Source: Mycobacterium marseillense
GTDB lineage: Bacteria; Actinomycetota; Actinomycetes; Mycobacteriales; Mycobacteriaceae
Assembly: GCF_010731675.1 (NCBI RefSeq)
Contig: NZ_AP022584.1
Span: 1,488,001-1,552,000, forward strand
Direction: 5' to 3'
DNA: 64,000 nt
How positions within the stretch are numbered: the stretch's first letter is position 1; each line of letters starts with the position of its first letter. Positions 46,001-64,000 of this stretch are shown here, one piece after another. A program made the translations under genes and the position numbers. The notes under the pieces were generated by a model, which saw only the letters and a list, made by a program, of their open reading frames with translations, was not told the origin of the DNA and made no database searches.

Positions 46001-49000
46001 TCAGAGCAGACCGAGCAGCTGCAGGTCGGCCACGTATTTGACGATCACCGCCGGGGTGATATGCGGGATGTCGTTGTCGGGGCCGATCTTGGCTTCCTGC
46101 ACCGCGGCGCGGAACCGCTCGGTCGGTCCCAGGCAGCCGCGCGCCGGGTCCGCCGGCGGCACGTGTTGGGCGTTGCGCAACTGCAGCAGCTGCAGCACCG
46201 ACTGGTGGCGCTGGCGTTCCGGCAGGGCGTGCAGCGCGGTCTCCATCCGGCGCAGCCACTCCCCGAAGTCGTCGACCCGCTCGATCGGGTAGCCGGCCTC
46301 GATGACCCAGTCGACGTACTCGTCGAGCCCGACGCCGTCGTCGTGCGGGTTCATCACGTGATAGGTCTCGAACCCGGCGGCGGAATCGCGGCCGACCTGG
46401 GCGCCCAGCGTGGTGATGGATTCGGCGACGAACTCGACCGGCAGTGCGTCGAAGTGCGCGCGTGGCCGGTTGCCGTGGGAGTCGAGCTGGTAGAACGAGC
46501 CCGGGGCGACGCCGCTGGCCACGACGCTGAACAGCAAGCGGGTGAACATGTCCGACAGGTTCAGCTGGCCCGCGTAGGTGGTGTCGGCCAGGATCATGTC
46601 GCAGCGGAACACCCCGACGGGCAGCGCACACAGGTCGTGGGCCTCGCGCAGCAGCACCTCGCCGGCCCACTTGCTGTTGCCGTAGCCGTTGCCGTAGCTG
46701 CCGTCGATGGTGCGGATCGGGCCGGCGACGCGGACGTCGGCGTCCTCGGTGAACGCGGCCGGCTCGATCTGGTCGCCGACGTTGGCGGTCGAGACATACG
46801 TGTACGACTTGAGTTTGGTGGTGAGCGCCAGCCGGATCAGCTCGGCGGTGCCGGCGACGTTGGGGGCGAACAGTTCGCTGTAGGGCAGCACGCCGTTGAC
46901 CACGGCCGCGGAGTCCACGATCAGGTCGACGGTGTCGGCCAGCCGCTGCCAGGTCTCCTCGTTCAGGCCCAGATTCGCGTGGCCCTTGTCACCGGCGATG
47001 ACCTCGAGGTGGTCGGCCGCGAGTTCGTCGAAATACCGCCGCAGGGCGGGGTCGCCTGCACAACCGGGGGGGTCGAAGGTCCTCTCCAGCCGGCGCCGCG
47101 CATCCTCGTCGGAGGTGGCCCGCACCAGGCAGATCAGCTTTCCGTCGGCCAGTTCCAGCCGTTCCAGCCATTGCAGCACCAAATAGCGGCCCAAAAAGCC
47201 GGTGGCCCCGGTCAATAGGACTGTGCGCACCTCGGCGCCCGGTCCCGGCAGCGACGGCGCGGCGGCCAGCGTCGGGGCGTCGATGAACTTGTCCAGCGTG
47301 AGGTCGCAGGCGTACACCTCGGTGGCGTCGCGGCCGTGCACCGAGGCGAAGTCGCCCTGTTGGCCTTCCGCCGCATCGTGATCGCGGTTGAGCTGCTGGC
47401 TCAGGCTGCGCACCGACGGCGCCTCGAAGACGGCGCGCACGGGCAGGTGGATGTCGAGGGCGTTGTAGATCGCGGCGACCAGGCGCATGGCCGACAGGGA
47501 ATCCCCGCCCAGGTCGAAGAACGACTCCTGCACCCCGACCCGCTCGAGGCCCAGCACCTGGGCGTAGAGCCAGGCCAGGATCTCCTCGACGGCGGTGGCC
47601 GGTGCGAGGTAGTCGTCGCCGCCCTGGTAGTCGGGGGCGGGCAGGGCGCGGACGTCAAGCTTGCCGCCGGGCGTCAACGGCAGCGCATCCAGGACCACCA
47701 CCGCGGCCGGCACCATGTAGGCGGGCAGGCGCTCGGCGAGCAGGGTGCGGAGTTCGGGCGGGTTGGCCGTCCCGGTGATGTAGCCGACCAGCCGCTTGTC
47801 GCCCGGGCGGTCCTCGCGGGCGATCACCAGCGCCTGCTCCACCCCGTCCAGTCCGGCCAGCGCGGACTGGATTTCGCCGAGTTCGATGCGATACCCGCGG
47901 ATCTTGACCTGTTCGTCCGCGCGCCCCACGTAGCGCAGCTGCCCGTCGGAGCCCCACCACGCCAGGTCCCCGGTGCGATACATGCGCGCGCCCTCCCCGC
48001 CGAACGGGCACGCCACGAACCGGGACGCGGTCAAACCGGGTCGGCCCAGGTAACCGGTGGACACGCCGCCGCCGGCAACATACAGCTCGCCGACCACGCC
48101 CGCGGGTACGGGCTGCAGGCAGCCGTCGAGCACGAACAGCGCGGCCCCGGACACCGGCGAACCGATCGGCGGCACTTCGGGCCCCGGCGTGAGCGGCGCG
48201 CTGATGGCCGCGACGATCGTGATCTCGGTGGGGCCGTAGACGTTGACCATCACCCGCCCGGACGCCCACCGCTCCACGATCTCGACCGGGCACGCCTCGC
48301 CCGCGACCGCCAGCACGGCGGACTCCAGGCCCTCCGTGGCGAGCATCGCCACCTCGGACGGTGTCTGGGTCAGCATGTCGACCCGTTCGGCAACGAGCAA
48401 GGCGTGCAGGTCTTTCGGGGAACGCACGACCTCGTCCGGTACGACGAGCACCCGCCCGCCGTGCAGCAGGGCGCCGAAGATCTCCCACACCGAGAAGTCG
48501 AAGGCCAGGGAATGGCAGTGGCTCCACACCCGTCCCGGCGCCGCGGGCAGGCCGGCGGCGCCCAGCGAGGCGAACAGTTGGGTGGCGTTGTGGTGGGTGA
48601 CCGCCACGCCCTTGGGGACCCCGGTGGTGCCCGAGGTGTAGATCGTGTACGCGATGTCGTGCGGCGCCGGCGCCGGCGGCGCCGTGGTGGGCCGGTCCTG
48701 GATCGCCGGGTCGTCGAGGTCGATGACCAGCAGGCCGAAATCGTCGAGGCGCGAACGGTATTCGGCGGTGGTGAGCACCGCCGCCGGTGCGGCGTCGCCG
48801 AGCATGAAGTCGATCCGGGACGACGGCAGGCCCGGGTCGACCGGGACGTACGCGGCCCCGGTCTTGAGCACCGCCAGGATGGCGACGACGGCCCGGGCTG
48901 AGCGCTCGGTGAGCAGCGCCACGCACTGTCCCGGCCCGGCACCATGGTCAATCAGCGTGTGCGCCAATTGGTTTGCGGACTCGTCGAGTTCGCGGTAGGT

Positions 49001-64000: not shown

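Follow-up and report, generated by a model that had tools for sequence, protein, structure and literature searches.

The window, a 64,000-nucleotide stretch of the Mycobacterium marseillense genome (C1:1488001-1552000 of a 5.5-Mb, two-contig assembly), holds from 46001 to 64000 a single open frame on the minus strand that continues past the window edge. The whole NRPS gene occupies window positions 46001-70774 (-), or C1:1534001-1558774, and begins 6.8 kb outside the window (numbers above 64000 follow from the genome positions). The gene encodes a seven-module NRPS of 8257 aa in a closed frame, with zero internal stops across 24.8 kb, and its start codon is probably the ATG at codon 5 (MQLDHQALPL), which is the same in the relatives P0015 and P0040. 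Modules 1 and 2 and part of C3 lie beyond the window edge.

Upstream of the gene and on the same strand are the glycopeptidolipid (GPL) synthetase genes mps2 (C1:1559358-1567016; 2552 aa, A-T-E-C-A-T-R) and mps1 (C1:1567013-1577305; 3430 aa, C-A-T-E-C-A-T-E-C), with an MbtH-like gene (C1:1577326-1577640) at the head of the mbtH-mps1-mps2 row. The opposite strand nearby carries an MmpS-like gene together with two MmpL, two ABC-transporter and two glycosyltransferase genes. The mps1-mps2 codes are DFWTVAAVCK, DFWSVGMVHK, DVWSVAAVYK and DVHSVAAVYK, of which calibration assigns Thr and Ala to the second and third, while the first and fourth fit Phe and Ala by position. Given these codes and three E domains, the row matches the GPL core Phe-Thr-Ala-alaninol, and the GPL line is thus accounted for next door, by separate genes with the right module order. 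The 583 bp between mps2 and the seven-module gene contain one terminator-like hairpin (0.7 expected in shuffles) and no promoter-like site (0.2 expected), both results being near chance expectation. Past the other end of the gene lie genes for a carboxymuconolactone decarboxylase-family protein, a nitronate monooxygenase, a class I aminoacyl-tRNA synthetase (which we take to be ileS) and a DNA-polymerase-IV-type protein, and the region there is ordinary chromosome.

The 8257-aa protein was cut at its Condensation matches into eight pieces, each of which was scanned with Pfam and NCBIfam. The full order is Cstarter-A-T / C-A-T / C-A-T / C-A-T-E / C-A-T / C-A-T / C-A-T-R, and the part within the window comprises the remainder of C3, A3-T3 / C4-A4-T4-E4 / C5-A5-T5 / C6-A6-T6 / C7-A7-T7-R, so that both libraries agree with the original prediction, which had read (C)-A-T / C-A-T-E / C-A-T / C-A-T / C-A-T-R from the window. 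Pfam places C, A and T domains in 7/7 modules, a second Condensation stretch in module 4 only, and a PF07993 reductase at the end; NCBIfam also matches module 4 to TIGR01720 and the C-terminal end to TIGR01746. No methyltransferase family was found in the eight pieces with Pfam, or among the best 25 NCBIfam matches per piece where these were numerous. The initiating module had been expected beyond the edge, and indeed extension of the gene to 70774 adds modules 1 and 2; by Pfam these contain neither an E nor a methyltransferase domain, and upstream modules do not supply what the visible part lacks. The reading of one E domain, a terminal R domain and no methyltransferase thus holds for the entire protein.

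The condensation domains C4 (59912..61273), C6 (52337..53698) and C7 (49130..50491) match PF00668 and lie on the minus strand, as do all domains given here. The carrier domains T3 (61334..61513), T4 (58196..58378), T5 (53750..53932) and T6 (50543..50734) match PF00550; the limits of T7 (47405..47611) are estimated from its GGDS motif, the PF00550 match being partial. The HHxxxDG motif of the C domains, the A3 motif, the carrier GGDS and the A10 GKxD are each present in 7/7 modules. In the case of module 5, the A8 motif departs (ARADHQVKVRG), and a PDB sequence search with this module matched general NRPS relatives only.

A separate gene at C1:1193200-1224519, 310 kb from the seven-module NRPS, encodes 10,439 aa in eight modules, with the codes DVWT..AMCK (followed by E), DAGI..GIWK, DFWTVGVMWK and DVWTVAAMCK in modules 1-4 and DVWSVAAIYK (E), DFWSVGVIFK, DVWSVAAVYK (E) and DVWTVAAMCK in modules 5-8, a methyltransferase in module 2 and a thioesterase at the end. 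Its first E domain, like that of the seven-module NRPS, reads HHLAVDA. The lipopentapeptide L5P is given as D-Phe, N-methyl-Val, Ile, Phe, Ala (PMC8103206), an order that modules 1-5 fit. Eight Phe-rich modules suit the lipooctapeptide that a rough M. avium makes (Riviere 1996, as cited in PMC11978893), which is a third MAC lipopeptide, and the gene is probably the lipooctapeptide synthetase. Since the GPL synthetases and the eight-module gene of L5P order are both separate, the seven-module NRPS is a further assembly line. The original prediction held that neither of the two known MAC lipopeptide types fits the gene; this stands, although the lipooctapeptide, whose probable synthetase is likewise encoded elsewhere, had been omitted.

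A peptide read from classical ten-residue tables alone was dropped, as mycobacterial codes (DFW..., DVW...) fit those tables badly, and codes were calibrated instead on GL8P, L5P and GPL. The first calibrator was P0005 of M. abscessus, set against the GL8P sequence TAFIYLTT determined by NMR (PMC11978893); from its order, P0005 appears to be the six-module enzyme of GL8P, that is, the six-module part of the synthetase MAB_4691c/MAB_4690c. That paper describes GL8P as an octapeptide, with four predicted E domains and a thioesterase, made at a locus apart from that of GPL. The second calibrator was P0210 (M. avium, five modules), probably the L5P enzyme, set against L5P. The tenth letter of each code, K, is set by the script, and the lysine was confirmed separately in the 7 modules of the seven-module NRPS.

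On the GL8P and L5P calibration, module 1 (DFWTVGVMWK) would select Ile, and modules 2 and 6, which have the same code (DFWSVGMVHK; A6 at 51215..52261, PF00501, calibrated on GL8P), would select Thr. In addition, the DNA of the A1 core is 99.0% identical to an Ile-coded core of the eight-module gene. A3 (61982..63007, PF00501) has an Ile-like code, DFWAVGVIWK, and is 86% identical to an Ile-coded domain of P0069 / WUMAC-067, which makes Ile the likely third residue. For A4 (58841..59845; DFWSIGQMFK), A5 (54407..55402; DVQSIGAVDK) and A7 (48047..49054; DFWTAAVIVK), all PF00501, no calibrated neighbour exceeds 71% identity, and the code of A5 is one that we take to resemble, perhaps, Gln/Glu codes.

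Among starter C domains, C1 has 58% identity to the one in mps1 and 52% to the one in the eight-module gene, and only 25-31% to the other C domains of its own protein; from this grouping it is predicted to be a starter C for N-acylation. The sole epimerisation domain, E4 (57032..58108), is the second PF00668 stretch, matched by TIGR01720, and has two Gly-to-Ala changes, HHLAVDA and EAHGR, with the catalytic His and Glu retained. In a set of 211 proteins with 319 E-type HHxxxD motifs, the ending is DG in 226, DA in 91 and different in 2, whereas EAHGR accounts for a single one of 316 ExHGR motifs (211 proteins), in P0012, from the same locus of another assembly, and is thus confined to this locus. 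The HHxxxDA form is also seen after the D-Leu module of P0005 and after module 1 (D-Phe) of P0210, and the HHLAVDA variant would be compatible with D residues as found elsewhere. The next condensation domain, C5 (55469..56740, PF00668), is of the post-E kind, with 62-63% identity to the C domains behind E in mps1 and mps2 and 29-31% to the remaining ones in its own gene. A D residue had been assigned to the second visible module, and the only E domain does sit there; the D configuration itself is predicted, and hinges on E4 with its unusual motifs. The terminal thioester reductase R (46007..47224; TIGR01746, PF07993; TGATGFLG and YGNSKW present) has 76.7% identity to its counterpart in mps2 and 75.2% to the reductase of an unassigned four-module gene, and because it is about as close to the one as to the other, release as an alcohol is only favoured.

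The predicted product is acyl-Ile-Thr-Ile-D-X4-X5-Thr-X7, with X5 perhaps Gln/Glu. In the proposed mechanism, the starter C domain would put a fatty acyl group on residue 1, the seven modules would assemble the chain, and the mps2-related reductase would free it, with an alcohol likelier than an aldehyde. The expectation of a peptide that is neither GPL nor L5P, with reductive release, one D residue and at least five residues, is supported on these grounds, with the length refined to seven. We conclude, with a probability of about three in four, that the gene is intact and encodes a lipopeptide synthetase of the mycobacterial GPL type that is complete in itself. This kind of enzyme is already known, and the likeness to Mps1-Mps2 extends to the starter C, the C-A-T(-E) modules, the reductase, the locus and the strand; the differences are seven modules in one protein rather than four in two, one E domain rather than three, and different codes. 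The likeness to the M. abscessus GL8P synthetase is that of a second GPL-type line in a GPL producer, with Thr and Ile codes in common. A lipoheptapeptide is also mentioned for Rhodococcus equi in PMC11278827.

The distribution of the gene was followed by searching module 1 against 148 genomes of the genus. Matches at E 1e-280 or better occur in 94/148 genomes, paralogues included, and module-1 identity of at least 69% was seen, among the matches listed, in 7 genomes including its own, two of them partial. Gene context was read for 21 of 64 loci; mps2 lies directly upstream in five of the six (L018, L019, L021, L023 and L026, not L027) in which module-1 identity is at least 67%, the match runs from the first residues and 10 kb of upstream sequence is present. 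The complete orthologue of M. colombiense GF76 has five modules and that of M. parascrofulaceum has the same seven-module layout, both downstream of mps2, and the M. avium orthologues P0040, P0041 and P0042, known as proteins only, have six. Two M. intracellulare proteins, P0097 and P0051, were excluded from the module counts, their first partial module matching module 3 best, and not module 1.

Estimates of dN/dS are 0.15-0.32 over 13 segments versus the M. colombiense orthologue and 0.23-0.43 over 15 segments versus that of M. parascrofulaceum, E4 itself giving 0.27 and 0.40, and all 28 segments compared are under purifying selection. These values bear on whether the gene has fallen silent or is decaying, with no product made, as might be suspected from the two changes in the E motifs, the departure of A8 in module 5, and the terminator-like site and lack of a promoter-like site upstream, both near chance. 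Against this, the frame runs for 24.8 kb without a stop, every segment compared is under purifying selection, and the HHxxxDA form is common and follows modules for D residues in P0005 and P0210; we regard a silent copy as improbable.

Still less probable is that the protein works with or replaces Mps1-Mps2, its product being a form of GPL. The gene does adjoin mps1-mps2 on the same strand, in a row headed by one MbtH-like gene. However, Mps2 has its own terminal reductase and the seven-module protein begins with a starter-type C, an arrangement that leaves no usual handover of the chain, and the number of modules, the codes and the E count are all unlike the Phe-Thr-Ala-Ala, four-module, three-E pattern of GPL.

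The seven-module form might also be an assembly artefact in which modules were falsely duplicated, given that NRPS modules are repetitive, that C6 and C7 have near-identical tracts and that a 99% copy of the A1 core exists elsewhere. Yet the seven A domains are only 57-70% identical to one another, C2-C4, C6 and C7 only 70-80%, and P0012, from another assembly, matches the protein at 98.9% identity along the 7424 aa that lie between residue 836 and the C terminus and keeps the order of modules 2-7; with the same layout also in M. parascrofulaceum, this reading is largely refuted. Finally, there is next to no chance that the gene is the M. avium lipooctapeptide or L5P synthetase: these are the other described MAC lipopeptides, their synthetases share the starter C with the seven-module NRPS, and the eight-module gene shares one near-identical Ile A-domain core with it, but they have an N-methyltransferase, a thioesterase and, in the eight-module form, three E domains, with no reductase, and the L5P order (Phe-Val-Ile-Phe-Ala), module-2 methyltransferase and thioesterase are all found in the separate eight-module gene.

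The gene for the self-contained GPL-type synthetase has long stretches of homology to mps1, mps2 and the eight-module gene. Recombination there probably changes its modules, whose number differs among the complete orthologues. One case is the A1 core (gene bp 1391-2501, aa 464-834; window 68274-69384, beyond the edge): over 1,111 bp it has 99.0% identity to the eight-module gene, which suggests recent gene conversion. Scored in 100-column windows, identity stands at 44, 39, 62 and 71% before the tract, 98-100% inside it and 82, 81, 62 and 89% from its end onward. Near-identity of this tract inside many genomes was considered and dropped: for the same 1,140-bp cut, the within-genome pair is 97.3% identical here, versus 79.1% in M. 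colombiense GF28, 72.5% in M. parascrofulaceum and 83.6% in M. arosiense. Compared with WUMAC-067, the tract is 87.8% identical and its flanks 90.6 and 91.2%, a weak hint that the seven-module NRPS was the recipient. P0012 begins at residue 836, just at the end of the tract, as would be expected where a short-read assembly breaks at a repeat.

C6, C7 and their surroundings have DNA tracts of 64-366 bp in common at 93.7-100%. A2 is 82.5% identical to the Thr domain of mps1 and 81.1% to a Thr domain of M. avium P0094, so that its derivation from mps1 is only a possibility. In P0015 of M. intracellulare, C1 comes from the seven-module orthologue (90% vs 53%) and the sequence past the end of the A core is joined to the eight-module gene (92% vs 77%), a fusion that may be either real or a misassembly. 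The comparisons suggest that the building blocks of the seven-module NRPS have been reshuffled with those of neighbouring genes.

Such exchange may also bear on PstA of M. avium subsp. paratuberculosis, which has been linked to biofilm formation, invasion and an unnamed lipopeptide. The PstA of strain K-10 (MAP1242; 4,027 aa) is described in PMC3537567 as a deletion fusion of mps1 and mps2, the analysis not being shown there. Three M. avium proteins of similar size, P0202, P0206 and P0207 (4016, 4009 and 4008 aa), are 89-93% identical to mps1 of the M. marseillense genome over aa 1-1000 and mixed over aa 1001-1250; the remainder, starting at about aa 1251, shows 92-100% identity to P0040, the M. 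avium orthologue. The P0040-like part consists of two stretches, one from the end of E4 to C6/C7 and the other A7-T7-R, and the Thr module is therefore missing. Compared with mps2 of M. marseillense, rather than that of M. avium, the same proteins are 63-78% identical where a whole 250-aa window aligns, and over aa 2501-3000 none or about a third aligns. P0206, for instance, has three modules with the codes DFWTVAAVCK (E), DVQSVGAVDK and DFWTAAVIVK, followed by R, and P0198 (M. avium, 133 member sequences, end cut) has the same first junction with the Thr module kept.

On these alignments the four proteins are fusions of mps1 with the orthologue of the seven-module NRPS, with the junction in the E domain. 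The PstA-sized ones end in module 5, module 7 and the reductase of that orthologue, and differ from it in having three modules, with the first and part of the E domain from mps1. Among the 120 listed of 1801 matches, no protein is labelled paratuberculosis; PstA may be the same as the P0206-type fusion, with which its size, fused origin and, judging by the M. avium proteins, reductase end agree. A single crossover between E1 of mps1 and E4 of the seven-module NRPS would remove the GPL synthetases and leave a Phe-initiated, reductively released lipopeptide synthetase, which would be PstA, rather than an mps1-mps2 fusion. The wider proposal, to which we give slightly less than an even chance, is that mps1, mps2 and the seven-module NRPS form a recombining row of direct copies, in which an E1-E4 crossover gave PstA and which gains and loses modules across MAC species; the length of the surface lipopeptide would then vary by species.

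If PstA is a fusion of mps1 with the seven-module NRPS, its published origin needs revising and the core of its lipopeptide becomes predictable, with Phe first, three residues and a reduced end. The literature searched does not describe the seven-module line, the turnover of its modules or how PstA may have arisen, although Data S1 of PMC11978893 may list the locus; of these, the turnover and the PstA origin would be new to a specialist. MAC surface lipopeptides affect colony type, serology and host interaction, and this additional assembly line beside the GPL genes can be tested directly by lipid analysis, its predictable product being an acyl heptapeptide with a reduced end. Orthologues with five, six and seven modules provide a natural comparison, and the A-domain core of 1.1 kb that is nearly identical in two synthetases of one genome offers a clean, natural example of the exchange of specificity domains.

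Further NRPS genes are present in this genome. A second mps1-like gene, of 3434 aa (C1:1633741-1644045; codes DLWAVGAVCK and DFWSVGLVHK), has a C domain at its end, with no further Condensation match nearby on that strand to serve as a partner; on the opposite strand it is followed by histidine-kinase and response-regulator genes. A four-module, reductase-terminated NRPS lies at C1:2580776-2596021 (DAFVIAAIWK(E), DAEHVAALCK, DARSIGAVDK, DAEHVAAMCK), and the modules of another NRPS cluster, at C1:634271-650000, are split between reading frames in this assembly. The second contig (17,972 bases) partly matches plasmids of MAC and M. kubicae, the best covering 70% at 86.8% identity, and these plasmids are mobilizable, mycobacterial, and carry MmpL/MmpS genes and a MobF relaxase.
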